Of a DNA stretch of 64,000 nucleotides, positions 9,445 to 30,568 are shown in pieces (the stretch's first letter is position 1; the number at the start of each line of letters is the position of its first letter). The DNA is from Desulfobulbus oligotrophicus (GTDB lineage Bacteria; Desulfobacterota; Desulfobulbia; Desulfobulbales; Desulfobulbaceae): the NCBI RefSeq assembly GCF_016446285.1, contig NZ_CP054140.1:2647501-2711500 (forward strand), written 5' to 3'. A model generated the notes under the pieces. The model did not search any database and had not been told where the DNA came from. It saw nothing but the letters and a program-made list of their open reading frames with translations. Both the position numbers and the translations under genes were made by a program.

Positions 9445-9706
9445 ACACTGCCATACCTCCTCTCTCCCTCTCCCACCCCACACAACGCGTCTTCCCGGCA
9501 CACAGTATCTGCTGAGGGTACAGCCGCCTTCCGACAACCTGTACGCTGCACACTGTATTGCGATTGGTGCCCGACCATACATTGATACAAGCAGATGGCC
9601 CGGTGTTGTCAATAAAAGGTATTTTGTAGCCGTTATGACGGAAAATACGTAGAAAAAGGGATTTTTTTAAGTATGATATGTATAAACCCTTTTCCTTTAC
9701 CGTGCC

Positions 9707-10162
9707 GTGGCTGCCGATCCTACTTCAGAACTCATCCAGCACCTTCGTCGCCCCGACTTAAGCATACTGGGCAATGCCATCCGTTCTCTGCCGCCTGCTC
9801 AATGGCAAACCCGTATGTTTTTTATGGGAGTGGCGGACAAAGAACTCAAACACCACACCAACGAATCCTTTCCCAGAACACTGCGTAAAACGCAGAACAC
9901 CCATCCGGTGTTTGTCCTCCGGCAGGGCACCACCGGCCACCAGCTCTGCCCCTGTTCTTCAAAAGGAAATCTGCGAAAACACCGTTACATCACCAAAGGT
10001 TGTCAGCTCGACATGACCTCGCAGGTTATGGACAGGAACTCCTTTTTGATCGAACAGTACGTGTTCATCCTTCCTCTGGATCACTGCTTCCAAAAACGTC
10101 CCTTCTTTTTTGGACGCGTTCCAGACTGCTGTATCCGTGATCAGCGGGATATGTGGACATGA
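9707..10162 (+). CDS. Unknown small protein, first gene of the sigma/anti-sigma/Lon-like operon
   Basis: The frame encodes up to 151 residues from GTG 9707. No clear ribosome binding site is seen, so the start is uncertain. Its end overlaps the next gene's ATG by four bases (ATGA at 10159-10162), which argues that it is translated and coupled. It is soluble, with features HQLCPCSSKG (about residue 78), a later Gly-Cys, MDRNSFLIEQYVFILPLD (about residue 109) and GRVPDCCI near the end. The HPVFVL strand and the all-beta look faintly resemble PemK/MazF-type or related small barrels, but I cannot support that assignment. The function is unknown; its context suggests a partner of the downstream sigma-like protein. 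Confidence 0.6.
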   Translation: MAADPTSELIQHLRRPDLSILGNAIRSLPPAQWQTRMFFMGVADKELKHHTNESFPRTLRKTQNTHPVFVLRQGTTGHQLCPCSSKGNLRKHRYITKGCQLDMTSQVMDRNSFLIEQYVFILPLDHCFQKRPFFFGRVPDCCIRDQRDMWT

Positions 10163-11217
10163 CGCAATCGACATCATCCCTGCTCGACAGCTTTCATCAG
10201 TGGCTGGCCTCATTACAGACAACCACTTCAATCATAAGGTTTGTCACAGCTGAATATCGCAAACCGAGCAACAGCAATCTATTCAGCGGGTATGAGGTGG
10301 AAGATCTCCATCAGGAGTTTCTCCTCTTCATCCTCGACACCTTTCTGACACCCGCAAAGCTGACCGCCGAAACAGTTCCTCTGCTTCGTACAGCCCAGTA
10401 TCCACGCATCATTCAACTGGCCTGGAACAAGTTCCTCTGGCAGTGTCGGGAAACCGCCCGCAGTAAACGACATAACCCGCGCGGTTACCTGTATCGGCGG
10501 CTGCGGGAGACCATCCAACAGGCTAAAAAACGTTTTACTGTTTCCCGTTCTCAACAGGGCTACCCGCTCTACATCCCTGCGGGACACGCTGTTCAACAGG
10601 CACATCCCTTTTGTCTCCCTGACAACGAACAGATCAACGGGTATGGACTCTGGCCTGCACCTCCGCCGGCAGAAGGGAAGATTCCGGAAAAGTATCTGTT
10701 TGAGCGTGACTGGCTCCTGGATACTGCCGACTTTTTCTGGCTGCTGGTCGTACAGCGTACAGCCGGCCCCCTCACCGTTCCCATCCGGGAACTCAGCCGC
10801 TATATCGCTGACCATCACCCCTGGCTGAACATACCGCAGCGCTATGAAAAAGAGGGTTCAGACATTACACAACACCTCCGCGCACAAGAACGGTCACCGG
10901 AAAAACAGCTGCTGTACAACAGTGCCCTGCACTCTGTCGCCCAGCTGGCAAAACAACTCGTTGCCACCTGGCCCATTGAGCAGCAACAGGTTTTTGCACT
11001 GCGGTTTGCCGACCCGCCGGTAACGGGGAAAGCCATTACCCGCAATCTCGGCTTTACCAGTCAGAGCCGGGCCTATGGACTGGAACAAAAGGCTAAAGAG
11101 TCGATCACACAGTTTACACGCAGCTGGCCGGGTATTCCACTTTCTGAGCTGCCCGAGGAGGTGGCAGTGATCTTTATCGAAGAAATAAAACGACTGTGCA
11201 AAAAAAGCCTCTCCTGA
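10159..11217 (+). CDS. Sigma-70-like protein, CRISPR-adjacent
   Basis: The start chosen is ATG 10159, overlapping the upstream stop as ATGA; an in-frame GTG lies at 10153. The 352-residue protein has two regions reminiscent of sigma factors. Residues 45-125 (EVEDLHQEFLLFILD, then NPRGYLYRRLRE) look like a region-2 helical bundle. Residues 255-310 (EQQQVFALRFADPP, then ITRNLGFTSQSRAYGLEQKA) look like a region-4 helix-turn-helix. A variable linker joins them. No membrane segment is seen. The next gene has an HxxxCxxC anti-sigma-type motif and the one after is a Lon-like protease, the classic order sigma, anti-sigma, regulated protease. The sigma assignment rests on pattern and context, not on a database match. 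Confidence 0.6.
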   Translation: MTQSTSSLLDSFHQWLASLQTTTSIIRFVTAEYRKPSNSNLFSGYEVEDLHQEFLLFILDTFLTPAKLTAETVPLLRTAQYPRIIQLAWNKFLWQCRETARSKRHNPRGYLYRRLRETIQQAKKRFTVSRSQQGYPLYIPAGHAVQQAHPFCLPDNEQINGYGLWPAPPPAEGKIPEKYLFERDWLLDTADFFWLLVVQRTAGPLTVPIRELSRYIADHHPWLNIPQRYEKEGSDITQHLRAQERSPEKQLLYNSALHSVAQLAKQLVATWPIEQQQVFALRFADPPVTGKAITRNLGFTSQSRAYGLEQKAKESITQFTRSWPGIPLSELPEEVAVIFIEEIKRLCKKSLS

Positions 11218-11262
11218 CCGTAATAACAGGTACAAACCTTTTTTATATTCTGTCTACACACC

Positions 11263-12369
11263 ATGGAAATATACTCTTCCGACCTCATCGATCATCCAGC
11301 CTGGCAACAGGCATGGCGGCTTCGGTGCTGCCCGCCTGACCACCTGCTGACCCAGCCGCCCAATGCCCTGCTCACCGAACATCTCAACATCTGTCCCTGG
11401 TGTCAGGAAAACCTGACCATGCCCCCCTGGCCAACACCTGCACCTGAGGAACTGATCATTAAAAGGGCCAAACCATCTCCCGGGCAACTCTATACCCTTG
11501 ATCCTCAGCTGGCCGGCTGGGGACCCAAGGCACGCTACTACAACCCGCCGGTGGTACTTATCCTGGCCTGCCCGGATGAGCACTCGGTCCTTGTCAGTCA
11601 GACCTATGGCGACCCGGCCATGGCCGGGCCCGGGGATATTGAACTGGGATCCACATTCACCGGTTTTGCTCAACCCTGGAACTGCTACACCCTGCAGCAG
11701 ACGGACCTGGATCTCTGCCTCGGCACTGTTGACAAACAGGTTGCCCCCCATGTGCAGCACCAACACAAAGCCCCCTGGTTTGATCCCAAGCCGGGATCTC
11801 TTCTGTGGTTTTTTCGCCATATGGAGGTCGAAACCGGCTATTTTTTCAGTAGCCGGGCAGTCAGCGAATTGATCACTGCACATGACAACAGGCTGCTTAC
11901 AGGTATAACCAGCATAAATAAAAAACGTATGCTCGAAGATTTACACGGCCTGCCGGTTCGGCTTCCATCTTCTGCTACTGCCACAACCTCCCCGCTTGAG
12001 CTGCTTTTCCGGGCAGAGTCGGACCTGCAACAGCTCCCCTTGGCTGCAGCAGACACAAAAACCCAACCCGCTCTTATCTTTACTGTTAAGAACAATCAGC
12101 TCACCACAGCACACACCGCAGACATTGTGCTATCAGGAACTGACTATGCTAACGGCCTGCTGACCATCACCGGCACAATTGCCTCCCTGCCGCCCGGCAA
12201 CCATGCCTGGCTCTTTCGCTGGCATGTTGATGGTCAACTCATCGAACCCGCGGCTGAACATACCGGATACGATAACCAGCTGTTCTGGGTCACCTTCATG
12301 CTTACACCGGCACAGACCCGGCCTCCGGCCCGTCTGGTTGTTCGTCTCCTTTGCGAGCCGTCCGGATGA
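11263..12369 (+). CDS. Anti-sigma-like zinc-motif protein, candidate protease substrate
   Basis: The 368-residue protein has an N-terminal H40-x3-C44-x2-C47 motif (LTEHLNICPWC) with Cys22/Cys23 upstream, as in zinc-binding anti-sigma (zf-HC2-like) domains. A middle domain (about residues 75-200) has beta-rich segments such as YYNPPVVLILACPDEHS and FAQPWNCYTLQQ. The C-terminal part (about residues 240-368) looks like an immunoglobulin-like beta domain. No signal peptide or membrane helix is seen, so it should be cytoplasmic. The gap from the sigma-like gene is 45 bp; its stop overlaps the next ATG by four bases. By analogy with CalpT it could hold the sigma-like protein inactive until cleaved; that is inference. 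Confidence 0.58.
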   Translation: MEIYSSDLIDHPAWQQAWRLRCCPPDHLLTQPPNALLTEHLNICPWCQENLTMPPWPTPAPEELIIKRAKPSPGQLYTLDPQLAGWGPKARYYNPPVVLILACPDEHSVLVSQTYGDPAMAGPGDIELGSTFTGFAQPWNCYTLQQTDLDLCLGTVDKQVAPHVQHQHKAPWFDPKPGSLLWFFRHMEVETGYFFSSRAVSELITAHDNRLLTGITSINKKRMLEDLHGLPVRLPSSATATTSPLELLFRAESDLQQLPLAAADTKTQPALIFTVKNNQLTTAHTADIVLSGTDYANGLLTITGTIASLPPGNHAWLFRWHVDGQLIEPAAEHTGYDNQLFWVTFMLTPAQTRPPARLVVRLLCEPSG

Positions 12370-14453
12370 ACGGTTCAACACACCATTGGTCCGAACTCGT
12401 AGTCCTTCTGCGCAGCAGCAGTCTTGTCAGTAGCCGACGTCTGTATCGCCCCTGCCCGATACCTCTGCCACCAGAATCCATGCTTAACAGTCTGTACGAG
12501 CTGGCCGAGCACCAGGGGCTTCTTCCTCTTTTTAAACGCCATCTGCTCACCAGTCTGGTCCTGCCGGCCACGTCACCGTCACACAACAATCAGCTGGCCT
12601 CTATCCTTGCCGACACCTTTCCCGATTATCCAATGGATAGTCTTTTGCAGGCAAACTGGTGCTGTGTCCCCATCCTCACCTGTCAACAGACGAGCGGCTC
12701 GGTTGTCTGGTTGCTCCTGGGTCGCCTTCCCGGTACGGCAACAGTCACCTTTCATGGCCATCCACAACCTGCAATCAGCAGCAGTGAAGCTGCATCTGCG
12801 GCACGGTCGGCTGTTCAACGGTTTGTACACTCAGCACAGTACGAGTTTCTCGGCCTTTTTCTCCAGCATCCGGATGACCCGCCGATCACCGGTGGTTCAC
12901 TCGGCCTGCCCCTGGCTCTGGGCATGCTGCTTCTTGACCGGCACAAACAGTGGCCACCAGGTGTTTTTGCCAGTGGCGGTATCACCGCAGATGGCAGTAT
13001 ACAGCCTGTTACCGGTGAAGAATGCAAGTACGAGGCCGTGGTCACAGACCTCAACCTGTTGCTCTACCCGGAGACCGGCTTGCCGGCAGCTTTCCCGGAG
13101 GATACCAGGGTGGTGCGCTGCAGAACCCTGGCCGATGCAATCCTTGCCCTTGATCTTCTTGCAGTTGACACTGACCCCCAACAGATTGCCCACTACCGTA
13201 CCTGTCTGTCACGTCCTGAACTCTTTTTAAAGGAGTTTGCCACCCTGCCAATCACGTTACTTGCTCTTCCAGAAGGTCGTCGGCTCCTTACCCGCATACA
13301 AAACAAACGAAAACACCTCTTCCCAGAGCTGACCAGCTGCCTGAACGCCTGCCAGAACGCCCCGGAACGGGCAAAAACAATCGCCCGACTTCTGAGCCCG
13401 GATGATGTGGCCCTGCTGAGCCAACAGGGAGACGATGCAGCGGTTACTGCCCTTGACTGGTGTATTGCCTGCATTGCCATAACCAACCGCCGCGGCCTGG
13501 TAACTGAAAGTACCGGTTGGATCAACCTGGCCCGCAATATAGGTAGACAGCTTTCCACCAAAAAGAAGGCTGACTACACCAACCACCTGTTTGTCACCAC
13601 CCGGTTCAACTGTTATTGGTTTGCTCCCGACCCACCGGCAGAATTTTCCCGTTATCTGCAGACGGAAGAGCAGATCTATCAGCTCGATCAGTGCGACAAC
13701 CGTCGCCTTGGCGCTATGTACGGCACCCTGGCACAGAACTACGGATTCTGCGGACCACAGTACAGAAAAGAGTTTATCGACTGTATCTCCAAGACGGAAC
13801 AAACCTTTGGCCGATCGTATCACCACCAGAAAATGCGGCTTTTTGCCTATCAGATCTACAGCCTTTTAGACTGTTCCCAACTCCAGGAGGCAACAACACT
13901 GCTCCACCACTACCTGCAACTGCCCGAAAAGAGCACACCTGGGCAATGGATAGATCGGGCAGTCACACTCAACAACACCCCCACAGAACACACTGCCTTT
14001 CAGATCGCGGTTGTCTGTCGTCTACTGGTAGAACTCGCCAACACTGACCAGCTGTTGATCCAGCCTTCTCGGGTCGATCAACTGGCCGCTCTTCTGCCCG
14101 CACACCTTATTCACCCCTGGCAGCTGATCGCCTATAATCTTGGCCGACTTGCCCTGATAACCAAACAGCAACAGCGGGCAACTTTCCTGTTTCAGCGTTC
14201 TGTCATGGCCTGCACAACAGCAAAGGGCACCATGCTGCCCATGGCTCTGCTGCCTCTGGCCCAGCTCAGCACCATGAACAACTGCAAAGAACAGGCTCTG
14301 TCAACCTGCATCAACGTTCTTCAGGATATACGGAACAACGAGCATTTTCATGCCCAGCACTTTGCGCCGCTTATCACAGCAACATCCCCTGCTCAGGCAC
14401 TGAAAAAGGTGCTGGCCGAACCGGGACGGTTTTTTCCTTTCAGTTATCGATAA
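12366..14453 (+). CDS. Lon-like (S16) Ser-Lys protease without ATPase, with long helical C-terminus
   Basis: The start chosen is ATG 12366, coupled (ATGA) to the upstream stop, giving 695 residues. Residues 60-260 fit a Lon proteolytic domain. TGGSLGLPLALGML places Ser178, and GGITADGSIQPVTGEECKYEA places Lys221. The 43-residue spacing equals that of the Ser679-Lys722 dyad of E. coli Lon, and the intervening GGIT..G.I.PV pattern matches Lon's TGEI..G.V.PVGG. No AAA+ Walker motifs, membrane helices or SAVED/CARF motifs are visible. Residues 270-695 are alpha-helical with TPR-like pairs (for example LALITKQQQRATFLFQRSV), suited to partner or signal sensing. It may cleave the anti-sigma-like protein encoded just upstream; catalysis is not demonstrated. 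Confidence 0.68.
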   Translation: MNGSTHHWSELVVLLRSSSLVSSRRLYRPCPIPLPPESMLNSLYELAEHQGLLPLFKRHLLTSLVLPATSPSHNNQLASILADTFPDYPMDSLLQANWCCVPILTCQQTSGSVVWLLLGRLPGTATVTFHGHPQPAISSSEAASAARSAVQRFVHSAQYEFLGLFLQHPDDPPITGGSLGLPLALGMLLLDRHKQWPPGVFASGGITADGSIQPVTGEECKYEAVVTDLNLLLYPETGLPAAFPEDTRVVRCRTLADAILALDLLAVDTDPQQIAHYRTCLSRPELFLKEFATLPITLLALPEGRRLLTRIQNKRKHLFPELTSCLNACQNAPERAKTIARLLSPDDVALLSQQGDDAAVTALDWCIACIAITNRRGLVTESTGWINLARNIGRQLSTKKKADYTNHLFVTTRFNCYWFAPDPPAEFSRYLQTEEQIYQLDQCDNRRLGAMYGTLAQNYGFCGPQYRKEFIDCISKTEQTFGRSYHHQKMRLFAYQIYSLLDCSQLQEATTLLHHYLQLPEKSTPGQWIDRAVTLNNTPTEHTAFQIAVVCRLLVELANTDQLLIQPSRVDQLAALLPAHLIHPWQLIAYNLGRLALITKQQQRATFLFQRSVMACTTAKGTMLPMALLPLAQLSTMNNCKEQALSTCINVLQDIRNNEHFHAQHFAPLITATSPAQALKKVLAEPGRFFPFSYR

Positions 14454-14559
14454 AAAAAATGCAGGGTGCAGCAAAAAATACGATCTGTGCCCGTACAATA
14501 GGAGCAGAGACAACAACCGTTAACACTGTTTGCAATGAACCAGATCAGGACAAACCACC

Positions 14560-14949
14560 ATGCATCAACTCTTTTTGATATTCAACCACAGTTTCACCCC
14601 GGACCAGGAGACCAGTGCCCGCACCGAACTCGGAGTTGCCGCGATCGTTGAGATGCCGCCGGAGCTGCAAGAGCTGTGGGCCAATGTACCGCCGGAGTTG
14701 CCAGGCCTTGATACCTGGCTGCAGCCCTTTTACCAGTGGATCACCAAGCACTGTCAACCAGGGGACTACATCCTCATCCAGGGCGACTTTGGTGCCTCAT
14801 ACCTGTTGGTTGGTTTTGCAACTGGCCGGCAGCTCATTCCTGTGTACGCCACCACCAGGCGTCAGGCTCGGGAAGAACACTTAAACAACGGCCGCATCCG
14901 CATGGAGCACACCTTCAAGCATGTACGATTTCGCCGATATGGTCAGTAA
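14560..14949 (+). CDS. csx20: Csx20, type III CRISPR ancillary protein (candidate ring nuclease)
   Basis: The 129-residue protein matches my recollection of the Csx20 family along its whole length: LFLIFNHSFTPDQ at the N-terminus, PPELQELWANVPPE, GDYILIQGDFGASYLLVGFA in the middle, IPVYATTRRQAREE, and the ending FKHVRFRRYG. Csx20 proteins occur only with type III CRISPR systems and have been proposed to degrade cyclic oligoadenylates, which would switch off the response. The gene lies 106 bp after the Lon-like gene and 68 bp before a broken CARF gene, so it may belong to either transcript. Catalytic residues are not certain to me. Confidence 0.72.
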   Translation: MHQLFLIFNHSFTPDQETSARTELGVAAIVEMPPELQELWANVPPELPGLDTWLQPFYQWITKHCQPGDYILIQGDFGASYLLVGFATGRQLIPVYATTRRQAREEHLNNGRIRMEHTFKHVRFRRYGQ

Positions 14950-15017: not shown

Positions 15018-15176
15018 ATGAGTGAAAACAAGCGCAACATCTTTATCGGTTTTCTTGGTACAAACCAGTATGTGCCCTGTAATTACCGTTTTAACAGTGC
15101 AGACACACCAATACCAAATATCCGCTTTATCCAGGAGGCCTGTATCAGACACTGGTGCACAGACTGGACAGCCTAA
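15018..15176 (+). pseudogene. Truncated N-terminal remnant of a CARF-domain (Csx1/Csx2-type) protein
   Basis: From ATG 15018, with AAGGAACAG upstream, 52 codons read NIFIGFLGTNQYVPCNYRF, then IRFIQEACIRHWC, then stop. The full-length csx1 at 16249 starts MAKIFVSFLGIGNYSKKPGY and VRFVQTAILTV, so the two share the same CARF strand-1 and helix-1 pattern. Only the first part of a roughly 400-residue protein remains; no later CARF (DxTHG) or HEPN sequence follows before cas6 at 15255. It looks like the relic of a second cyclic-oligoadenylate effector removed by an internal deletion. A functional mini-protein cannot be excluded. Confidence 0.7.
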
Positions 15177-15254: not shown

Positions 15255-16214
15255 ATGAGTGCCTCAATGACCATCTCCATCCACCAACTCACCTTTCACT
15301 GCCGCTGGCTGAGCGAGGCGCGTTTACCCGGCTACCTGGGCTCAACGCTCCGCGGTGCCTTTGGCTGGGCACTGAAAAGAAGCTGCTGTGCTCTAAAAAC
15401 ACAAGAGTGCGCAAACTGTATGCTGCGTCAACGGTGCGGTTATGCCTGGATCTTTGAAACCGAGCGCTTCACAGAACCAGACGGACAGCGGGTGAACGCC
15501 CGCCCCCACCCCTTTGTGTTACAGCCCGGACAAAACAGTGCTGGAGAGAGAAAGGCCGGGGAAACATGGGATTTCTCACTGCTGCTCATCGGTCGCGCCA
15601 TCGACTACCTGCCCCACATTGTCTACAGCATTCAGCAGATGGGGCGTTCGGGTATCGGGGCTGCTGTCCGACATGGGTTTGGCCGATTCGAGCTTGAAAC
15701 CATTAAAAGCAAAGACACTGTTCTCTACGAGAACACGGCCAAAGAGCTCCACAACACGCCGGTTGCCACCGAACTGCGCCCCGACTGCAGCACAGTGTCT
15801 CCGGTACACAGCCTGCTCTGCACTCTGGAAACCCCGCTACGCCTGAAACACAACAACACATTATTCAGGGAGTTGCCCTTTCATGTACTTATTCGTGTAG
15901 CACTCCGCCGGATAACAGCCCTGGAATCAGCCTATGGCCAGGGTGAGCCCGCCTTAGACTACAGCGACCTGGTTCATCAGGCCACACAGATTAAAGCCGT
16001 CAACTCCACCCTGTGCTGGCAGGAAACACTACGCTACAGTAATCGACAACAACAGAAGGTGTCTTTAAGTGGCCTGGTCGGTTCAGCAGAGTACCAGGGC
16101 AACCTTACGCCCTTTGTTCCCCTGCTCGAATACGGCAGCCGGGTTCACCTGGGCAAACAGACTGTCTTTGGTCTGGGTAAGATAGCCCTGCAATGGGACC
16201 CTCCCAACACCTGA
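15255..16214 (+). CDS. cas6: Cas6 pre-crRNA processing endoribonuclease
   Basis: The 319-residue RAMP-fold protein has the layout of the large Cas6 family found with type III systems: an N-terminal LTFHC...LPGYLGSTLRGAFGWALK, a cysteine set CCAL..CANCMLRQRCGYAW (about residues 38-58) typical of this branch, GIGAAVRHGFGRFEL, and a C-terminal glycine-rich GKQTVFGLGKIAL. It should cut the array transcript within the repeat, leaving the 8-base 5' handle ATTAAGAC on mature crRNAs. An alternative in-frame ATG lies at 15270. The start lacks a strong ribosome binding site. It is followed 34 bp later by csx1. Confidence 0.88.
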   Translation: MSASMTISIHQLTFHCRWLSEARLPGYLGSTLRGAFGWALKRSCCALKTQECANCMLRQRCGYAWIFETERFTEPDGQRVNARPHPFVLQPGQNSAGERKAGETWDFSLLLIGRAIDYLPHIVYSIQQMGRSGIGAAVRHGFGRFELETIKSKDTVLYENTAKELHNTPVATELRPDCSTVSPVHSLLCTLETPLRLKHNNTLFRELPFHVLIRVALRRITALESAYGQGEPALDYSDLVHQATQIKAVNSTLCWQETLRYSNRQQQKVSLSGLVGSAEYQGNLTPFVPLLEYGSRVHLGKQTVFGLGKIALQWDPPNT

Positions 16215-16248: not shown

Positions 16249-17568
16249 ATGGCAAAAATATTTGTAAGTTTTCTGGGCATAGGCAACTACAGTAAAAAAC
16301 CAGGTTACGAAACTGCCACCTACTTCTGGCCAGAAAAAGGAAACACAGAAATAACCGTTCGATTTGTGCAAACTGCAATTCTTACAGTTCTTGAACAGGA
16401 GAGTCCTGTTGATACGTTCCTTCTCCTGTGCACCGAAGATTCAAAAGAGAAGCATCTGCATCTGCTGCAAAAAGAGCTTCAGGAACATCTGCCCACCGGC
16501 CCCATGCCCACTGTTCCACAACAGCTGGTCCCCACGGATATGCAACCAGCCAACCAGTGGAAATGGTTTGAGCAGTTGCTTGAACGTATTCAGCCCGGTG
16601 ACCGCCTGACCATTGACTTTACCCATGGCATGCGGGCGATACCGATTGTCTTTTCCAGTGCCATCGGCTTTCTGCAACGGGCTAAAGGGGTGCAGTTGGA
16701 GCATGCACTCTACGGGTGGTACGATCCGGCCAAAAAAGACGAACCACATCCCATCGTTGATATGCGTGACTTCTATATAATCAACGACTGGACCGAAGCC
16801 GTGGCCAGGCTTGCCGACGATGCCGATGCCAGGAAGCTGGGCGAACTGGCAAAGACCACCCGGATCGACACCCTGCGACCGCTGGCCGATCCTTCCCTGA
16901 TCAGTGCGTTTACAGAGATGACCGACTGTATCCGTAATGTGGATGTGAACAACATCAGCAACAAGGTGGGTGGCGCCCTGAACAAGGTCGAACAGGCAAG
17001 AAAAGGGGCCACAGGTTCTGCACAGGTGATGCTCGACCTGGTGCGTGATAAGTTCACAGGCCTGGCCTCAAATCATCCGGCCAGCGGCAGATACGACCTC
17101 CCCTATTTCCAGACGCAGCTGGAAATCATCAGCCTGTTGCTCGAACACCGCCTGTTCATGCAGGCCTTCACAGCCATGCGTGAGTTTGTGGGATCAATCG
17201 GTATGGCTGGGTTGACAGGAAAATATGCCAACAAAAAGATGTCAAGTTCCGACGGGAGAAGATACAGAAGAAGGTTTGCCGAGGTCTTTGTCAACATGAT
17301 GCAGGTACCTCAAGAAAAATGGAAATTTTTCAATAAAAACGAAACAGATAAAGAAACCCTCATGCCCTGGTACGAAAAACTGCAAAATACCGGTGTGGAA
17401 CAGCAGCTCAGGAGTTTTGTCAAAGACTTAGTGGACACACGAAACGGTTTTGACCACGCTTGGACATCCAAGGCAGAAGCATATGGTACAGTTGAACAGG
17501 ATGGGCGGCGCTATTTTGAAAAGTTAAAAAACATTCTTGAACAATTAAAAGAGAAAGGATGGATATAA
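16249..17568 (+). CDS. csx1: CARF-HEPN ribonuclease of the Csx1/Csx2 (DxTHG) family
   Basis: The 439-residue protein begins MAKIFVSFLGIGNYSKK, a CARF strand-1. It carries the family signature D123-F-T-H-G127 (TIDFTHGMRAIP), which shapes the cyclic-oligoadenylate pocket. The C-terminal helical part holds R398-N-G-F-D-H403, the Rx4H active site of HEPN ribonucleases. On phage RNA recognition Cas10 makes cyclic oligoadenylate, which would activate this protein to cut RNA nonspecifically. Start ATG 16249 has AAAGGAG upstream. The gene lies 44 bp before cas10, as expected for an ancillary effector. Confidence 0.88.
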   Translation: MAKIFVSFLGIGNYSKKPGYETATYFWPEKGNTEITVRFVQTAILTVLEQESPVDTFLLLCTEDSKEKHLHLLQKELQEHLPTGPMPTVPQQLVPTDMQPANQWKWFEQLLERIQPGDRLTIDFTHGMRAIPIVFSSAIGFLQRAKGVQLEHALYGWYDPAKKDEPHPIVDMRDFYIINDWTEAVARLADDADARKLGELAKTTRIDTLRPLADPSLISAFTEMTDCIRNVDVNNISNKVGGALNKVEQARKGATGSAQVMLDLVRDKFTGLASNHPASGRYDLPYFQTQLEIISLLLEHRLFMQAFTAMREFVGSIGMAGLTGKYANKKMSSSDGRRYRRRFAEVFVNMMQVPQEKWKFFNKNETDKETLMPWYEKLQNTGVEQQLRSFVKDLVDTRNGFDHAWTSKAEAYGTVEQDGRRYFEKLKNILEQLKEKGWI

Positions 17569-17612: not shown

Positions 17613-20147
17613 ATGGATAAAGAGTTACTTCAGGCAATTTCCTTAGCCGGAATGTTGCATGATATCGGTAAATTCGCCGAACGTGCTGACGCTGTCGAAT
17701 CCGGCGACCAAGACATGATTCGACAAGAATATCGGTATAGTCACGCTTTTCATACCGAACAGGCGTTAAAACTGCTTTTCCCTGAAGAGCAGTTGAACAA
17801 GAGCTTTGGTGATCTGACCGAATGTACGGTAATGAATCTGGCCGCCCGTCACCATAAGCCCCGCAACGTCTTTGAGCTGATGATTACCGAATCAGACCGC
17901 ATTGCAGCCGGACATGAACGTGCAAAAGGTGACGCAGATTCCGACTATGATACCGGCGGTCGAGAACGCAAAAGTAAAACTCCCATGCTCAGCATCATGG
18001 CCAGAATTCGTCTGAAAAAACACGCTGACGAGCAAGGAAGTTCCGATGACTGGCGCTACCGGATAAATAACGAGGGCCTGGCATACTCATCTGATGAGTA
18101 CCACCGTCTTTTTCCGGTATCATCACAAACGTATAAAGCCGAGCAGGTCCGCCGCGACTATCAGGCTCATTGGCAGGCATTTCGTCGAACTATCGCTGAC
18201 AACAGCATCGGGCTTGATCTCTTTGGCCATGCCGATACCATTATTGACGTCTGCCGAGCGCATCTCTGGTGTCTTCCTGCATCAACGAGAAAGGAAGAGA
18301 TGCCCGATGTCTCACTGTACGACCATCAGAAAGCCACCGCCGCCCTGGCTGCATCGATGTACTGGTATCACGCCGAACACTCGACCTTGCAGGAATCGGC
18401 AATCACGAATCGTCAACAAACCAAATTTCTCCTTTTTTGTGGAGATATCAGCGGTATTCAACAGTTTATCTATAAACTCTCTTCAAAAGGTGCATACAAG
18501 ACCCTGAAAGGACGATCTTTCTTTGTTCAATTCCTCTCAGAACTGCTGGCTGACAGGTTCATTCAAACACTGGGATTAACCAAGGCGAATATCCTCTATT
18601 CAAGCGGCGGTAAGTTTTATCTTCTCCTGCCAAACACAGAAGGAGTCCAGACACTGCTTTCCGACCTGCAGGAAGAAGTAAACACCGAGCTGTTGAAAAA
18701 ATTTTCAGGGGATCTTTATGTACGTTTCAGTCGTATTTCTCTTTCCGGTGACGATCTCACCCGGCAAAGCGGCAGAACACTCTGCCAGATATGGGATGAG
18801 TTGACAAGACGTCTGGTTGCCGAAGACACCCAACGATACGCTGCAACGGTTTCTAAAGATTACGCTATCCTTTTTGGCACCGGCAGCGGCGATCAACAGA
18901 GCTGTGTTGTCTGCCATCGGTCAACAACAAAAGACAACGACACCTGCCCCACCTGCCGTGATATGAAAACACTAGGCACCTCGTTGCCACGTTCGACCTG
19001 CATAGTTGTTACCACTGAACCACTGGCAACAGTTTCCCGCCCCAATTTTAAACTCTTCAACCGCTTCGTCTATCTCTCAGAAAAAATACCTGCTGACCTA
19101 CGCTCAGGAAAGGCTCGGCTGTATGCCCTCAACAATGCAGATTTTTCAACCCTGGCACTTGACTGTGCCACACGAGGAGAACTCATCGACTGCACGCCTT
19201 TTCTGGCAGGCTCCATGCATACCTTTGCAGACACCTTTGATGAAATAGCCGATCAGGCTCAGGGGGTAAAACGTCTTGGTATCCTGCGCATGGATGTTGA
19301 TTCCCTCGGCAAAATTTTCAGTGAAGGACTCCAGAACTACAGTCACGAAACAATTCACGATAAACGGTTTCACTCCCTTGGCAGAATCACAACTTTGAGC
19401 TGGCAACTCACGCTGTTTTTCAGCGGTATACTCCCACAGCTCATTGCCGAAAATGCTGAGTGGCGCGATCGGGTAACTGTGGTGTACTCCGGTGGTGACG
19501 ACCTTTTCCTCATCGGTGCATGGGATGCACTCCCAGAAATTGCCCTTACAATTCAGCAACGTTTTGCTGCATTTACCTGTAACAATCCGTCCTGTACGCT
19601 GTCCGGTGGACTGGTAATTACTCCCGGTAAATTTCCAATCTACAAAAGCGCTGATATGGCTGGCGAGGCTGAACATCGGGCCAAAAAACACGAAACTACT
19701 TTTAAAAATGGTCGCCTGACAGATAAGGCATCGATAACATTTCTGGAAACTCCCATGCACTGGCAAGAGTTTGAAATACTCAGCCGGCTGTATACCAAAG
19801 TGCTGATCATAGCACAAAATCCGCAACACGCTTCATTGGTACGACGTCTACGCGATATCGCCGCCTCTTGGCGGGAAAGCTGCGCCTATCTGCAGCAGCA
19901 AGACCGTCTTTCCATAGACGCAATCAAAAATCAGTTACAGGCAGAAAAGTGGCGTTGGCGCATGGTATACACCCTGGCTCGTTACGCTGCAGGAAAACCA
20001 TCCTTATCGCAGACTATTCAGGAACTACAGCAGTTTATCACATCAGAAGTGGGCACAACAGATCGTCAGGGTATCGAACTCCTTGGCGTGCTGGCACGAT
20101 GGTGTGAGTTAAGACTTCGTAATGAAAAAATAAAGGAGACAGTATGA
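17613..20147 (+). CDS. cas10: Cas10/Csm1, type III-A large subunit with HD nuclease and cyclase domains
   Basis: The 844-residue protein starts after a good GAGGAG site. H16-D17 (GMLHDIGKF) forms the N-terminal HD single-stranded DNase. FCGDISGIQQFIYKLSSKGA marks the first palm domain. A zinc module CVVCHRSTTKDNDTCPTC (about residues 431-448) follows, then the second palm with G627-G-D-D630 (YSGGDDLFLIGAW), the cyclic-oligoadenylate synthetase site. Both catalytic centres therefore look intact. It assembles with Csm2-5 and crRNA in the cytoplasm. Its stop overlaps csm2 by four bases. Confidence 0.93.
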   Translation: MDKELLQAISLAGMLHDIGKFAERADAVESGDQDMIRQEYRYSHAFHTEQALKLLFPEEQLNKSFGDLTECTVMNLAARHHKPRNVFELMITESDRIAAGHERAKGDADSDYDTGGRERKSKTPMLSIMARIRLKKHADEQGSSDDWRYRINNEGLAYSSDEYHRLFPVSSQTYKAEQVRRDYQAHWQAFRRTIADNSIGLDLFGHADTIIDVCRAHLWCLPASTRKEEMPDVSLYDHQKATAALAASMYWYHAEHSTLQESAITNRQQTKFLLFCGDISGIQQFIYKLSSKGAYKTLKGRSFFVQFLSELLADRFIQTLGLTKANILYSSGGKFYLLLPNTEGVQTLLSDLQEEVNTELLKKFSGDLYVRFSRISLSGDDLTRQSGRTLCQIWDELTRRLVAEDTQRYAATVSKDYAILFGTGSGDQQSCVVCHRSTTKDNDTCPTCRDMKTLGTSLPRSTCIVVTTEPLATVSRPNFKLFNRFVYLSEKIPADLRSGKARLYALNNADFSTLALDCATRGELIDCTPFLAGSMHTFADTFDEIADQAQGVKRLGILRMDVDSLGKIFSEGLQNYSHETIHDKRFHSLGRITTLSWQLTLFFSGILPQLIAENAEWRDRVTVVYSGGDDLFLIGAWDALPEIALTIQQRFAAFTCNNPSCTLSGGLVITPGKFPIYKSADMAGEAEHRAKKHETTFKNGRLTDKASITFLETPMHWQEFEILSRLYTKVLIIAQNPQHASLVRRLRDIAASWRESCAYLQQQDRLSIDAIKNQLQAEKWRWRMVYTLARYAAGKPSLSQTIQELQQFITSEVGTTDRQGIELLGVLARWCELRLRNEKIKETV

Positions 20148-20542
20148 ACCAACAAAACGTAAGGCAATGGGTGAACCATGGGCCTGACCTCGGACTACTG
20201 AAGATGACCGAACAACTCGGTAGCGAATTAGCTAAAGGATCAGGTGGTAAACTGACCACATCGCAGATACGGCAAGTCTTTACAAAACTAAAAGCTATAG
20301 AGGCAAAGGGATTTGACCTGTCTGAGCAGCGGCTGGCATTTATGATGCTCAAGCCTTTTCTTGCCTATGCCTCGGGCCGAGACAGTAGAAACGAAGCCCT
20401 AAAAACCTTCAAAAACACAATGACATGGGGCATTGATGCCGTCCTTGAAGGGGACAGCGAAACTGAAACACAACGGTTTAACCACTTCTGTAAACTGTTC
20501 GAGGCCGTACTGGCATACCACAGAGCCCATGGCGGAAAATAA
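20144..20542 (+). CDS. csm2: Csm2, small subunit of the type III-A effector
   Basis: This 132-residue all-helical protein sits between csm1 and csm3, with ATGA overlap to csm1, which is the invariant csm2 position. The motif LTTSQIRQVFTKLKAIE (about residues 41-57) and the central LKPFLAYASGR match Csm2. Several copies line the crRNA-target duplex on the convex side of the complex. Length is normal for the family. Confidence 0.88.
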   Translation: MNQQNVRQWVNHGPDLGLLKMTEQLGSELAKGSGGKLTTSQIRQVFTKLKAIEAKGFDLSEQRLAFMMLKPFLAYASGRDSRNEALKTFKNTMTWGIDAVLEGDSETETQRFNHFCKLFEAVLAYHRAHGGK

Positions 20543-20553
20543 AGGAGCACACA

Positions 20554-21357
20554 ATGAGCGAAACACGATTACAGTTAACAAAAAAAATATTCATCAAAGG
20601 CCAGATTGAACTTCTCACCGGTATGCACATTGGCGGTTCCTCACTGGGGCTGTCGATCGGCGGTGCTGATAAAGTTGTGGTGCGAAACCCCTTAACAAAC
20701 CTTCCCTATATTCCTGGTTCCTCACTCAAGGGGAAGATGCGCTCTTTACTGGAAAAAAGTCACGGCCTGATTGTTCCCAAACAAAATGATAATAAGGAGT
20801 GGGTGGGTAAACTCTGCGAAAATCCGGACGAAGATATCGTCCAGCTTTTCGGCTTTGCTGCAGACGTTGCAAAAAGTCGTGCAACTTACGCCCCCACCCG
20901 CTTAACCGTCCGCGACTGTATCCTCGTCAACATCGATGAGCTCGCCGAATCGGACCACACCGACATGTACTGCACAGAGGTCAAAACCGAAGTTTCCATC
21001 GACAGGCTGACCTCAGCGGCTAATCCGCGTAACTTTGAAAGGGTACCGGCAGGTGCCAGATTCAAGCTCGACCTGGTGCTCGATATCTATAATGTCGATG
21101 AAGATACCGACGATACCGATGCAACAAATGGTGATCCCCGCGCCAGACGTTTTGTCAAGCTGCTTCGAGAGGGGTTGCAACTTATTGAAGACGACTATCT
21201 CGGTGGTCAGGGAAGCCGCGGTTACGGGCAGGTTCGTTTTGTCATTGACTCCGTCAGTAAGCGCACCGCTGAAGACTACCGTAACGACAACATGGAAAAA
21301 ACACCATCACAATACAAAGGCCTCTTCTCACCATTTACTCGCGAGGGTAGCCAATGA
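20554..21357 (+). CDS. csm3: Csm3, backbone subunit and target-RNA nuclease
   Basis: The 267-residue RAMP protein has the signatures IELLTGMHIGGSS, SIGGADKVVVRNP and PYIPGSSLKGKMRSLLEK. Asp39 in GGAD aligns by pattern with the catalytic Asp33 of Streptococcus thermophilus Csm3, so cleavage of bound target RNA at 6-nt steps should be active. GGQGSRGYGQVRF is the C-terminal glycine-rich loop. AAAGGAG precedes the ATG. The stop overlaps csm4 by four bases. Confidence 0.92.
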   Translation: MSETRLQLTKKIFIKGQIELLTGMHIGGSSLGLSIGGADKVVVRNPLTNLPYIPGSSLKGKMRSLLEKSHGLIVPKQNDNKEWVGKLCENPDEDIVQLFGFAADVAKSRATYAPTRLTVRDCILVNIDELAESDHTDMYCTEVKTEVSIDRLTSAANPRNFERVPAGARFKLDLVLDIYNVDEDTDDTDATNGDPRARRFVKLLREGLQLIEDDYLGGQGSRGYGQVRFVIDSVSKRTAEDYRNDNMEKTPSQYKGLFSPFTREGSQ

Positions 21358-22370
21358 ACCAAGTCTATCACCTGAACTTCACCACACCGGTGCACTTCGG
21401 GCTTGAAGGGATAGGCCAGGAACAGATTGATCATATTGTCCATTCCGACACCCTGTGGGGAGCAATCATTGATAAGTGGCTGCTCCTCCATGCGGATGAT
21501 CCTGAAGAAGTATGCACATCCACCTCGTTTAACGTAAGTTCAACCTTTCCGCTCATCAACGGTACCCGTTTTTATCCGGTACCTCTGGGCGCTCTGAACA
21601 AGGTAATGGACGATGTTGCCCTCCTGGATGCTGGCATCAGCCCCCTTGAGCTCAAGGATATTAAAAAAATCCGCTACATCGAAGAAAACCTTTTTAAACG
21701 GATCCTGGCCGGAGAAGAACCGATACTAGCAGACCTGACCTCCGGCTCGGTCTATCCCTTTCCTTTTTCAACAAAAAAAGAGCAAAATCCAACCAGATGC
21801 TTTGCGCTTGAGATACAGCGTCCCCGGGTTATGGTAGATCAGCTAAACGGCGGTGTGCAGGCTGGAGCCTTTTTTTACAGCACAGACCAGTACTTCAACC
21901 AAAACTCAGGGCTGTTCTTTGTAGCCTCCTTTACCTCCCGGGCAGTTCGCGACAAATTTGAAGCTGCCCTGCGATTGCTGGGCGATGACGGCTTAGGGGC
22001 AGATCGCAGTGTTGGCCGGGGAACCTTTACCTTCACCGTATCGAACTGGCCCCTTACAACAGCGGACAATGCTGATGCGCATGTACTGCTCTCACTCTAC
22101 TTCCCCACCGCCGAAGAGGTGAAAGACGGTGTGCTGTCCAGCCCGATAAGTGCCTACAAGCTTACCCGCCGCAGCGGCCACACCGGTGGTCATCGCGTCA
22201 GTCGATTTCGCCGTGCTGACTGCTGGATGCTGACCGAGGGTTCTGTACTTCCTTTTGCACCAGCAGGTCATGTCCCTTGCGTGTTGCCACAATCGGGAAT
22301 AATCCCGCACAATGTCTACCGGTATGGACGGGCCTTTTGTGTGCCCTTTGTGCGCAGGAGGAAACAATGA
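21354..22370 (+). CDS. csm4: Csm4, crRNA 5'-handle-binding subunit
   Basis: The 338-residue RAMP protein begins VYHLNFTTPVHFGLEGIGQEQIDHIVHSDTLWGAI, in which HSDTLWGAI is characteristic of Csm4. LGADRSVGRGTF is the glycine-rich loop. It pairs with Cas10 and grips the 8-base crRNA handle. Both ends overlap neighbours by four bases (csm3 and csm5), showing strict translational coupling. Confidence 0.9.
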   Translation: MNQVYHLNFTTPVHFGLEGIGQEQIDHIVHSDTLWGAIIDKWLLLHADDPEEVCTSTSFNVSSTFPLINGTRFYPVPLGALNKVMDDVALLDAGISPLELKDIKKIRYIEENLFKRILAGEEPILADLTSGSVYPFPFSTKKEQNPTRCFALEIQRPRVMVDQLNGGVQAGAFFYSTDQYFNQNSGLFFVASFTSRAVRDKFEAALRLLGDDGLGADRSVGRGTFTFTVSNWPLTTADNADAHVLLSLYFPTAEEVKDGVLSSPISAYKLTRRSGHTGGHRVSRFRRADCWMLTEGSVLPFAPAGHVPCVLPQSGIIPHNVYRYGRAFCVPFVRRRKQ

Positions 22371-24061
22371 AACAGGACCGATCAATACGTGAAACCTATC
22401 AACTCAACGTGCAGCTATTAACACCCGTGCATATTGGTTGCGGGAAGAACTACGTTCAAGATATCGATTACATTAAAAGCGGTCAGAAAGTATCTGTTTT
22501 CGATCAGAATAAACTGTTCGCAGAGGTTGCCGCCCTTGGGGAAACCGCTGTAAATGAGTTCACAGCTGCTGTAGAGGAGCAGCAAGTACACTCCTTTCTT
22601 AGAGAGAAAAAAATCAACCTGAACTCAATCACACTCTACTCCTTTTCCTGGTCAACAGAAAACAGGCTGGCCAGGATGCCAAGGGACATCAGGCGGTATA
22701 TACGTGATGGTCTGGGTCGCCCGCTTATCCCCGGCTCTTCACTCAAGGGGCTGTTTCGTTCCGCTATTCTCTCTCGTCTGAATGAGGAAAATAAAAATCG
22801 AGAGGTAAAAAAACTGGTTGAGAAGATTAAAGTATCGTCTCAGAGCAAAAAACGATCAGACCTCAACCCCAAATATGCAGCTGATCCTGTACTACATGCC
22901 CTTCTTGGCAAAGATGCAAAATACAACCTCATGCGTTCACTCACTGTTTCCGACTGTGTGTTACCATCAAACGCCGTGCAGGTGGATGAGGCTTACGTAA
23001 CGAGCTTAGAAACAGGTGCAACACGTTTTAAACGAAAAAAATGGAGCATGCTTATCGAACAGGTACGCCCGGGTGAATGTGCCATCGGTCAAATTTCTTT
23101 TGACCGGTTTTTGCAGGAACAGGCACAGGGTAAAGCAGTGTTCAACTTTCAAACTACCCTTAACCGTGACTGGCTGGTACAGGCTCTTCGGCAAAGAACC
23201 AGCAGATTTCTCGATGCTGAGCGTAAGTTTCTCCACGACAAGAATGGCGATGGTGTTAAGCAGTTGCAACAGTTTTACAACCAACTACAACGACAGATTG
23301 AACAACTAAAAGACAATGAAGCTATTGCTCAGTTTGCCTGGGGCAGCGGCTGGCAGGGAATGACCGGTGCATTACTGGCACCGGATGACCTGACCAGAGA
23401 TGTGCGCACCGCGCTGCAATTGGCAAAACACCGTCTGAACTTTCCGTTTCCCAAAAGCCGAAGACTGAGCGGTGGTGATGAAGCAGCAAAGCCGATCGGG
23501 TGGGTCAAGCTCTCATTTATAAGCTCGGAGAACAATGATCCTCCGCAAGAAGAAGATCCAACCGCCACCGTTCGGAAATCTCTTGAAAAAATGAACATCA
23601 TTCAAAACTGGGATCAGTTGAAAAGAGCTGCATCTGACTTGAATAAAGAAAACAACGAAAAGGAAGATGCCGTTGCCAAAGCTTTTAAGGAAGCTGCTTT
23701 ACGAGTAAAAGCCAACTACCCTGACAAATGGACACCAGAGCGGGATAGTCAGGTCAAAGCCTGGCTTGCGCCCGCCGGCCTGACCTGGACAGACTCCACC
23801 ACTGCCGATCCTGTAGAGGAAGAGCCTTCCGGCAGCCCCAACAGGATCACAGAGGCTGCCTTTAAAGACTATGGCGACTGGTTAAACCGTCACCAGGACT
23901 TTCAAATAAACGAACTGAACCAGGCAGAAGCAACAGCACTGCTCACTCTGTTTAAAGACTGGAATCTTGATAACAACAAGTCGTGGAGAAAAACACCGGC
24001 CAAAAAAGAGTGGTGGCAAGAGGTAAGAAAGAGGATACAACAGCTGAAGAAAACCGGCTGA
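22367..24061 (+). CDS. csm5: Csm5, distal cap subunit, unusually long
   Basis: The start chosen is ATG 22367, with AGGAGG upstream and ATGA overlap with csm4; the frame stays open upstream to 22277 inside csm4 but that is not needed. The product has 564 residues, against roughly 350-400 in well-known Csm5 proteins. The N-terminal RAMP part shows LLTPVHIGCGKNY and RPLIPGSSLKGLFRSAI. GWQGMTGALLAPDD (about residue 327) is probably the second RAMP glycine-rich loop. After about residue 400 there is a charged helical extension (for example LEKMNIIQNWDQLKRAA) without recognised homology. Csm5 caps the crRNA 3' end and may recruit maturation nucleases. Confidence 0.85.
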   Translation: MKQDRSIRETYQLNVQLLTPVHIGCGKNYVQDIDYIKSGQKVSVFDQNKLFAEVAALGETAVNEFTAAVEEQQVHSFLREKKINLNSITLYSFSWSTENRLARMPRDIRRYIRDGLGRPLIPGSSLKGLFRSAILSRLNEENKNREVKKLVEKIKVSSQSKKRSDLNPKYAADPVLHALLGKDAKYNLMRSLTVSDCVLPSNAVQVDEAYVTSLETGATRFKRKKWSMLIEQVRPGECAIGQISFDRFLQEQAQGKAVFNFQTTLNRDWLVQALRQRTSRFLDAERKFLHDKNGDGVKQLQQFYNQLQRQIEQLKDNEAIAQFAWGSGWQGMTGALLAPDDLTRDVRTALQLAKHRLNFPFPKSRRLSGGDEAAKPIGWVKLSFISSENNDPPQEEDPTATVRKSLEKMNIIQNWDQLKRAASDLNKENNEKEDAVAKAFKEAALRVKANYPDKWTPERDSQVKAWLAPAGLTWTDSTTADPVEEEPSGSPNRITEAAFKDYGDWLNRHQDFQINELNQAEATALLTLFKDWNLDNNKSWRKTPAKKEWWQEVRKRIQQLKKTG

Positions 24062-24370: not shown

Positions 24371-26230
24371 GTTGGAAGGAATGCCCCGATCAGAGGGGAT
24401 TAAGACGGAAGGCTGTCCAGGGCTGGAGCCTCTTTTTAAGCTGTTGGAAGGAATGCCCCGATCAGAGGGGATTAAGACGATCAAAATTCATTGCGTTGAG
24501 CTGCGATGTGTTCAGTTGGAAGGAATGCCCCGATCAGAGGGGATTAAGACTCTCAGATAAGACAGCTGAGAAGAGACGTTTCTATGTTGGAAGGAATGCC
24601 CCGATCAGAGGGGATTAAGACTGACCGTTGAGCTGACTGTAATTAATTTCAAAATTCAGTTGGAAGGAATGCCCCGATCAGAGGGGATTAAGACTAGGTA
24701 AACAATTTTAGCGTCAGTAATGTAAACCTGGTTGGAAGGAATGCCCCGATCAGAGGGGATTAAGACACTGAGATTATTCTTAACCTCAATAACGCCGTCT
24801 TCGGTTGGAAGGAATGCCCCGATCAGAGGGGATTAAGACTTGCCGTCGGTTGTAATTGTGGTTGCGAATCCGTTCGTTGGAAGGAATGCCCCGATCAGAG
24901 GGGATTAAGACCCCTTCACAGATCTCTGGCGTTTGACCAATACCTGTGTTGGAAGGAATGCCCCGATCAGAGGGGATTAAGACCAGCTGTATCAGCGTGA
25001 CCGATACAGCTACTTGGGATAGTTGGAAGGAATGCCCCGATCAGAGGGGATTAAGACATAACAAACCGCCACGTGGGGTACCGTCACCACGTGTTGGAAG
25101 GAATGCCCCGATCAGAGGGGATTAAGACACTTCGGCCCCTGCTGCAATCATAATCTCTCGAACGTGCGTTGGAAGGAATGCCCCGATCAGAGGGGATTAA
25201 GACTGGATTAACTTTCCGCTGGCAATGGCTTCTTTTAATGGTTGGAAGGAATGCCCCGATCAGAGGGGATTAAGACTTTTTGCAAATATTGAATTAGTAT
25301 GACAGATACAACTGTTGGAAGGAATGCCCCGATCAGAGGGGATTAAGACGGTTTGTCCGCGGACTTACCGGAAGTTTCATTTGTTACGTTGGAAGGAATG
25401 CCCCGATCAGAGGGGATTAAGACTTGCGGACCGACCCGTGTCTGGATCGCGGCTGATGGGTTGGAAGGAATGCCCCGATCAGAGGGGATTAAGACCGGCA
25501 ACCGTCTCCGTTTCATGATGTACATTAGTCGTTGGAAGGAATGCCCCGATCAGAGGGGATTAAGACCAATAGTTCTTGCAGTCGAGCGAAGGATTCCGAA
25601 CGTTGGAAGGAATGCCCCGATCAGAGGGGATTAAGACCATTTGCTGTTTTGCCTCCTTGAAAAAGGGTTAATTGGGTTGGAAGGAATGCCCCGATCAGAG
25701 GGGATTAAGACTGAATTTTGTAGAATCTCTACATCCCCGCCTATATGAGTTGGAAGGAATGCCCCGATCAGAGGGGATTAAGACACTGTCTCGTGAGACA
25801 GTGGATGCTCCTGTGGGTTAGAGTTGGAAGGAATGCCCCGATTAGAGGGGATTAAGACATATTATCAATTCTATAAGATTATCAAATGATCTTGCGTTGG
25901 AAGGAATGCCCCGATTAGAGGGGATTAAGACGTGGCTGGGGCGGCCTTAATGATTTGTCGTGCCCTAGGTTGGAAGGAATGCCCCGATCAGAGGGGATTA
26001 AGACTTAAATTTTGCCCTGCAATCGATCAGGCCTTTTTGCAAGTTGGAAGGAATGCCCCGATCGGAGGGGATTAAGACTCGGCAATATACCGTTCGTTTC
26101 TCGAACCATTAGAATTAAACGTTGGAAGGAATGCCCCGATCAGAGGGGATTAAGACATGTAGCGGTAAGCGGTAAACATGAGTCCGATACCGATGTTGGA
26201 ACAATTGCCCCGACCAGAGGGGATTGACTC
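24371..26230 (+). CRISPR. Type III-A CRISPR array, 26 repeats and 25 spacers
   Basis: The 36-bp repeat starts GTTGGAAGGAATGCCCC, continues GATCAGA and ends GGGGATTAAGAC. CCCC and GGGG form a short stem. Repeats begin at 24371, 24443, 24515, 24586, 24659, 24731, 24804, 24876, 24948, 25022, 25093, 25168, 25241, 25314, 25388, 25460, 25531, 25602, 25676, 25749, 25823, 25896, 25969, 26043, 26121 and 26195. Spacers are 35-39 bp except one of 42 bp (26079-26120); all differ. Repeats at 25823 and 25896 have ATTAGA for ATCAGA, the one at 26043 has ATCGGA, and the last (26195-26230) is degenerate. This polarity puts the leader at the left and transcription on the plus strand. The 8-base crRNA handle would be ATTAAGAC. 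Confidence 0.98.
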
Positions 26231-26414
26231 TTTTTTCCACTTCTGCAACAGGTAACCGGTGCCGGTACATTATCATCCTGTACCAGCTGGTTGACGTCCC
26301 TTGGCAACCCTACTGTGCTTTTTTAGTCTTTTTTAACCTCCCTGCCGAAAAATCGCTTTTCTGCCCGTATTTCAAAATAAAGCCGCCGAACAGTCATCTA
26401 CCTGCGGAGGTGTT

Positions 26415-27839: not shown

Positions 27840-27879
27840 CCGCCGAAAGACATCATCGACCATAGAGAGAGGAAAGGCC

Positions 27880-29490: not shown

Positions 29491-29500
29491 GCAGGCAACC

Positions 29501-30520: not shown

Positions 30521-30568
30521 AGGCAACCGTTGTACAAGGCTGCAGACCTTGTATCAGGAGCAGAACAG

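Follow-up and report, generated by a model that had tools for sequence, protein, structure and literature searches.

The 64,000-nt stretch of Desulfobulbus oligotrophicus DNA analyzed here (NZ_CP054140.1, positions 2,647,501 to 2,711,500; hereafter, the window) carries a four-gene module, p1-sig-zn-lon, next to a type III-A CRISPR (clustered regularly interspaced short palindromic repeats) locus on a one-contig 3.1-Mb genome. This module is probably a sigma-factor switch wired to type III CRISPR, and would be a third kind of CRISPR protease/anti-sigma/sigma cascade beside CalpL-CalpT-CalpS (CalpL-T-S) and Csx29-Csx30-CASP-sigma. The case for its output is drawn from a promoter-like motif, and that for its input from exchanged protease halves, genomic linkage, and precedent. 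The original prediction of a CRISPR-triggered proteolysis pathway is partly supported overall: the type III link, the sigma, zinc, and Lon roles, and the lack of a CARF or SAVED fold in the protease gained support.

In the mechanism that we propose, zn would bind and silence sig at rest, as its family suggests. An encounter of the CRISPR complex with invader RNA would send a signal to the Lon protease, most likely via its helical C-terminal half. By analogy with CalpL and Csx29, the protease would then cut zn and free sig for transcription from RAAAAA-N9-TGNCCGTA promoters. Its targets would be the csx20-csx1-cas10-csm operon, the TPR-PrimPol-cas1-cas2 operon, and zn-lon, the last of which would therefore provide both amplification and a brake. 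p1 may be a further regulator or sensor.

Module proteins and their recurrence beside type III CRISPR genes

The genes lie on the forward strand in the order p1 (9707 to 10162), sig (10159 to 11217), zn (11263 to 12369), and lon (12366 to 14453). Re-checking of the coordinates confirmed order, strand, and the three junctions as first described, namely, ATGA overlaps at p1-sig and zn-lon and a 45-bp gap between sig and zn. The best start for sig is the ATG at 10159, in the overlap with p1; the list of open reading frames starts it at a GTG at 10153. The product of lon has a helical N terminus, a Lon S16 domain at about residues 97 to 252 (Ser178/Lys221), an all-helical C-terminal half, and the terminal sequence FPFSYR. 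Its initial assignment as a Lon-like Ser-Lys protease was upheld by profile and structure matches. In the PDB, a profile of seven lon relatives matched Lon proteases (2.7e-5) and, over the active-site stretch, CalpL (0.39); the Pfam Lon_C cut-off was passed by two relatives, plus a third in a later search; and a Foldseek search with the predicted structure (predicted local distance difference test [pLDDT] score, 87.6) returned 1,265 matches, of which the best 50, those listed, are all Lon-fold proteins (Lon, 1.3e-5) and thus bear on the protease part, not on the C-terminal half. Ser178 and Lys221 are conserved throughout an alignment of 32 rows (32 of 32), which includes one gene entered twice, as L028 and L060, and a truncated L079; their spacing of 43 residues is equal to that of S679/K722 in E. 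coli Lon. As anticipated from the window alone, the protease lacks SAVED and CARF: residues 255 to 695 are all helical in the model, no strand of at least 3 residues follows residue 252, and neither fold was found in the model or among family matches. Together with the helical model, weak TPR matches in three relatives suggest that this half is TPR-like.

The sigma-70-like assignment of sig, made from the window protein, is weak for that protein alone (Sigma70_r2, E = 0.029) and firmer for the family. Region 4 is clear and region 2 weak, with a long insertion between both. Sigma70_r4 was found in 11 of 26 family members at E ≤ 0.1 (best, 3e-5), the family aligned with region 4 at E = 4.4e-8 with 0 of 100 decoys scoring as high (HHalign), and a family profile search retrieved FliA at 4e-7 and extracytoplasmic function (ECF) sigma factors at 9e-4. 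Region 2 is also weak in relatives (E = 0.0018 in L026). The product of zn is likely the anti-sigma factor that silences sig, judging from its family. The predicted HxxxCxxC motif (C23...H40xxxC44xxC47) is kept with its upstream C23 ligand across 27 members, C23 and C44 being invariant and H40 and C47 present in at least 90%, and zf-HC2 was matched weakly in 4 of the 27 at E ≤ 0.1 (best, 0.0088). Besides a conserved C-terminal domain, zn has a possibly MazF-like part at about residues 74 to 168. This region aligned with 26 PemK/MazF sequences over 93 columns (E = 9e-4) at an HHalign probability of only 22.7% and a score of 24.6, which none of 100 shuffled decoys reached (best, 17.3). The zn profile matched nothing in the PDB below E = 1. 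A MazF-like part would possibly match CalpT (CRISPR-T), known here by description, whose 23-kDa fragment resembles MazF according to passages of PMC9704534.

p1 encodes a 151-residue protein of unknown fold, whose family of 19 members conserves CPCSSK and FxGxVP motifs. No convincing Pfam family was found for it (best E = 0.0092, to SfsA, in one member only), its profiles matched nothing in the PDB, and its AlphaFold2 model is poor (pLDDT, 49). A relationship of p1 to MazF was tried and is not supported (score 17.3, a value equalled or exceeded by 1 of 100 decoys).

Distribution was surveyed in a near sample of 55 genomes and a phylum sample of 395. The protease family occurs in 8 of the near genomes; in 7 of these 8, lon lies beside csx20/cas genes or RT-Cas1, and in G026 the contig ends inside lon. 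This recurrence beside CRISPR genes argues against a chance origin of the arrangement. At E values of 1e-48 or better, the family is present in 22 of the 395 genomes, from 11 families, a lower bound given that at most two candidates were scored per genome. Matches between 1e-17 and 1e-12 were left out of the 22, i.e., a 182-residue fragment in G162, a Lon part in a 650-residue frame in G429, and a DUF3800-like protein in G364. A 12-row lon profile also matches Lons over the protease part only, so that 380 of the 395 genomes have some match; those broad matches are presumably ordinary Lon proteases. All four genes are present in the same order in 14 of 20 further loci. p1 occurs in 15 phylum genomes, every one of which is among the 22 carriers of the protease, and lies just upstream of lon, each time within about 3.5 kb.

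Type III or Cas1 genes are on the contig of lon in 17 of the 22 genomes, as the expected link to type III CRISPR would have it; these 17 span 9 families. The nearest cas10 and/or csx20 lies at 0.1 to 20 kb in G000, G340, G210, G375, G232, G322, G378, G258, G211, G157, G090, G234, and G300; the other linked genomes are G126 (RAMP genes at 10 kb), G154 (Cas1), G360 (Csx1), and G004 (RT-Cas1). G269 (1 of 22), where lon lies 500 bases from a contig start, was counted as neither linked nor unlinked. The survey also addressed whether the operon would turn up mostly without cas10, which is not so: clear cas10 occurs in 18 of the 22 module genomes versus 101 of the 373 others (Fisher P = 3.6e-7, ignoring relatedness), where clear denotes a hand tally at E ≤ 1e-10 (119 of 395) with a cut set after viewing the list. 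At E ≤ 1e-5, cas10 was counted in 170 of 395 genomes, a figure that includes weak GGDEF-like matches and a cutoff at which an E. coli control was also positive. Among 12 loci examined, 9 show CRISPR genes in the available stretch, and none were recognized in L023, L024, and L025, on contigs shorter than 5 kb. The partners vary, from Csx1 to a CARF-PDDEXK protein in L022 and diverged Cas10s, and csx20 is the next gene after lon in 6 of 8 loci examined; no csx20 match was found in the module genomes G026, G360, G301, G279, G269, G220, and G327. These counts support the module as a recurrent neighbor of type III genes. No relatives of lon or p1 were confirmed on viral contigs. L017 (531 to 1908), from the same genome as L014/L022, has the p1 and lon fragments of a decayed second module beside csx20, csx1, and cas10.

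A promoter-like motif before module and CRISPR operons

The lon-csx20 gaps of five Desulfobulbus loci have AAAAAA-N9-TG(C/G)CCGTA in common within otherwise diverged DNA. On the forward strand of the window, AAAAAA-N9-TGACCGTA lies 40 bp before zn (11200 to 11222), AAAAAA-N9-TGCCCGTA lies 64 bp before csx20 (14473 to 14495), and GAAAAA-N9-TGCCCGTA lies 45 bp before the adaptation operon (26347 to 26369). With up to two mismatches, the window has 4 sites versus 0.66 expected, a number reached by 0 of 100 shuffles: those before zn, csx20, and TPR-PrimPol-cas1-cas2, plus one elsewhere with two mismatches. RAAAAAN9TGSCCGTA has two exact matches in the 3.1-Mb genome, one ahead of csx20 and the other ahead of the cas1 operon. 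Exact matches to the first form in ten genomes number 9, i.e., the 5 defining sites, 2 before the cas1 operon (G001, G015), and 2 elsewhere. The broader AAAAAAN9TGNCCGTA matches exactly at 26 sites in the 55 near genomes; the 8 module genomes account for 17 and the other 47 for 9. Among those 17, 7 precede csx20 (the 5 defining sites and 2 in G025) and 5 precede the cas1 operon (G001, G007, G011, G015, G026; in G007, G011, and G026 this operon was recognized by eye from the start of the TPR gene). The rest lie before zn (G000, G001), before a gene upstream of p1 (G007), and elsewhere (one each in G015 and G001). Clear cas10 is also present in the module-negative genomes G018, G035, and G054, where sites are absent from the listed cas10 contig or, for G018, from the 400 kb around it.

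In distant families, a G-AA-(A/G) plus CCGTA pair with a spacing of 14 to 16 occurs at 15 of 22 sig-zn junctions versus 50 of 6,600 random windows of the same loci and 14 for the reversed pattern; this pair was first seen by eye, and the junctions are related by descent. CCGTA lies past the stop codon in the window, L064, L069, and L072. In these families, cas6 of L061 (a broken frame) is also preceded by a site, at 53 bp, as is csx1 of L067 and L070, at about 110 bp. ECF promoters typically have a CGTA −10 half. The conservation of the motif suggests that it is an ECF-like promoter read by sig, with CRISPR operons and zn-lon as candidate targets. Neither the motif, nor the possible MazF-like domain of zn, nor the conservation of p1 and its occurrence solely with this module in the sample was part of the original prediction.

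Several observations weigh against a CRISPR-wired switch with this promoter. Inspection by eye of five csx20 leaders first revealed the motif, whose sites there count by construction; TGS was widened to TGN after TGA and TGT variants had been seen before zn and in G025. With one mismatch, there is no excess over the backwards pattern, either in the whole genome of the window (17 sites versus 19 backwards) or in five genomes (70 versus 87), and over the 55 genomes the backwards pattern, with 38 exact sites (5 from the 8 module genomes), is commoner than the motif. A conserved CK is encoded by part of the A-run at the sig-zn junction, where the motif is missing in L020, L062, L066, L029, and the two loci amid curli genes (L077 and L078), with the L070 copy lying outside the tested stretch. 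G004 has the module and no motif match. In 4 of the 22 genomes (G301, G279, G220, G327), no RAMP match at E ≤ 1e-5 or clear cas10 was found, and 2 of these, G301 and G279, carry the CRISPR-type protease half, on contigs of 8.6 and 5.8 kb. Family searches and the lon model disclosed no cyclic-nucleotide domain in the four module proteins. Finally, the target of zn may be something other than sig.

The stretch just before p1 in the window (9673 to 9706) has what looks by eye like a sigma-70-type −10 element, GTATGATA, but lacks the module motif. Basal p1-sig expression therefore seems separate from the regulon.

Exchanged protease halves and rival readings

p1-sig-zn-lon also lies amid curli genes (CsgG) in G220 and G327 (L077, 6561 to 11535; L078, 8463 to 13644), where no type III genes were detected. 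Both Lon copies have the dyad intact, with 44% identity between them along the full length. Their match to the CRISPR-linked family extends no further than about residue 410, and they lack the FPF-S/T-YR tail; the two loci have no module motif at the sig-zn junction. Conversely, the CRISPR-type helical half occurs apart from Lon in DUF3800-like proteins of about 710 to 740 residues. One such protein (L065, 14410 to 16590; assigned by eye) lies near a module and carries this half on a different head (profile positions 315 to 638, E = 1.9e-21) with the end FTFNYY; a DUF3800-like neighbor in L028 (7205 to 9346; Pfam E = 0.0066) is related to it over residues 415 to 625 (E = 1e-5); and the G364 protein, also assigned by eye, matches in the helical half only (profile positions 459 to 636, E = 1.2e-14). 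The likeness to the helical half is strong in L065 and L054 and weak in L028. Because the curli copies carry another half and DUF3800-like proteins share the CRISPR-type one, the Lon/sigma core is, on this sequence evidence, portable, as is the helical half. The same differences make the helical half the likely input of the protease, so that the earlier proposal of the helical C terminus as signal receiver gains support from the curli copies and the DUF3800-like sharer.

Tentatively, and in a form that may well fail, the switch can be specified further. The helical half would be a receptor of the CRISPR signal unlike CARF or SAVED, reading either cyclic oligoadenylate or the target-bound effector complex. 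It would be movable, driving on Lon a CRISPR-dedicated sigma regulon that includes effectors, spacer acquisition, and a brake on itself, and perhaps on DUF3800-like proteins a second effector, and the other half of the curli Lon would answer another signal. Cyclic tetra-adenylate (cA4) is plausible as input because Cas10 keeps GGDD and a Csx20 degrades cA4 (passages of PMC12409355). The same two facts, the position of csx20 directly after lon in 6 of the 8 loci, and the occurrence of p1 only with the module in our sample would also suit a relay, in which p1 or one of the CARF-type proteins Csx20 and Csx1 passes cyclic oligoadenylate sensing on to the protease. The seven module genomes devoid of a csx20 match speak against this sub-case of the CRISPR-wired switch, and Csx20 is accounted for by its known role on cA4 made for Csx1; we regard the relay as quite improbable.

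The same sigma/anti-sigma/Lon core might instead have CRISPR as its output only, with another stress signal raising CRISPR expression ahead of infection. The motif makes CRISPR operons candidate targets under this reading as well, it would explain the core amid curli genes and in two further genomes with no type III genes detected, and it fits four proteins in which no known nucleotide sensor was found. However, CRISPR-linked copies share one half, with the tail FPF-S/T-YR or close to it, whereas the curli copies differ, which points to a CRISPR-specific input, and the known precedents are CRISPR-triggered; we consider an output-only role unlikely. An independent stress module lying beside CRISPR by chance could draw on the four unlinked members of the 22, but the 17 linked members span 9 families, two effector kinds (Csx1 and CARF-PDDEXK), and diverged Cas10s, and a motif is common to module and CRISPR operons. 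We disfavor it as very improbable and retain the CRISPR-wired switch.

The surrounding locus and known systems

csx20, a ring-nuclease family gene (14560 to 14949; NF040559, 3e-46), starts 106 bp past the end of lon, and coordinates and family matches bear out both this distance and the strand in common with the csm genes. On the same, forward strand follow cas6 (15255 to 16214; family search), csx1 (CARF-HEPN; 16249 to 17568; 5e-162), cas10/csm1 (17613 to 20147; TIGR02578, 1e-178; GGDD at residue 627 and HD at residue 16), csm2 to csm5 (20144 to 24061; csm2 by position only, RAMP matches for csm3 to csm5), a CRISPR array (24371 to 26230; 26 copies of a 36-nt repeat, the last one degenerate), and the adaptation operon (26415 to 30847), with genes for a TPR protein (26415 to 27839), PrimPol (27880 to 29490), cas1 (29501 to 30520), and cas2 (30530 to 30847). 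The effector beside the module consists of Cas10/Csm1 and separate RAMP genes in the window and appears, by eye, Cmr-like in D. elongatus. The TPR and PrimPol (AEP-TOTE) genes between the array and cas1-cas2 (26415 to 29490) are possibly under the same sigma factor. The csx20-cas6 gap (15018 to 15176) contains, by eye, a remnant of a second Csx1-type CARF gene, at the spot where L018 has an intact 451-residue CARF-HEPN gene (12639 to 13994).

The module resembles CalpL-T-S in its Lon-type protease and its sigma factor (an ECF one in CalpL-T-S; passages of PMC11417357) and possibly in a MazF-like part of the anti-sigma protein, the presumed substrate (passages of PMC9704534 for CalpT), but the module protease has a helical C-terminal half instead of SAVED or CARF, and the module adds a zinc motif in the inhibitor and the extra gene p1. 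With Csx29-Csx30-CASP-sigma of type III-E it has in common a helical-repeat protease (TPR in Csx29, probably TPR-like here), a likely sigma inhibitor, and a sigma factor, and passages of PMC10028731 describe matches to the CASP-sigma motif of D. ishimotonii upstream of cas1 and of two further genes in that locus. However, Csx29 is a CHAT (caspase-like) protease on Cas7-11, whereas the module has a Lon protease beside a multisubunit Cas10 effector. Pairs of zinc-binding anti-sigma factors and ECF sigma factors share the C...HxxxCxxC motif, the sigma gene in the operon, and a motif with a CGTA −10 half; the module differs from them in the possible MazF-like domain of its inhibitor, its own dedicated Lon protease, and the large insertion of sig. 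SAVED-CHAT and CARF-Lon effectors are likewise CRISPR-linked proteases of type III loci (passages of PMC11229360 and PMC9704534), but their protease is fused to a known cyclic oligoadenylate sensor. No Lon-sigma module devoid of SAVED or CARF was noticed in the available portions of open-licence PubMed Central full texts (e.g., PMC12669027, PMC11229360, PMC10910872, and PMC12839542).

If true, the switch would be a third, separately built route from type III RNA detection to a transcription program, one that operates with no known nucleotide sensor. The motif common to its operons would predict which genes respond, with spacer acquisition turned on during infection and the response braking itself, and the exchanged halves point to the part of the protease that is the candidate sensor.

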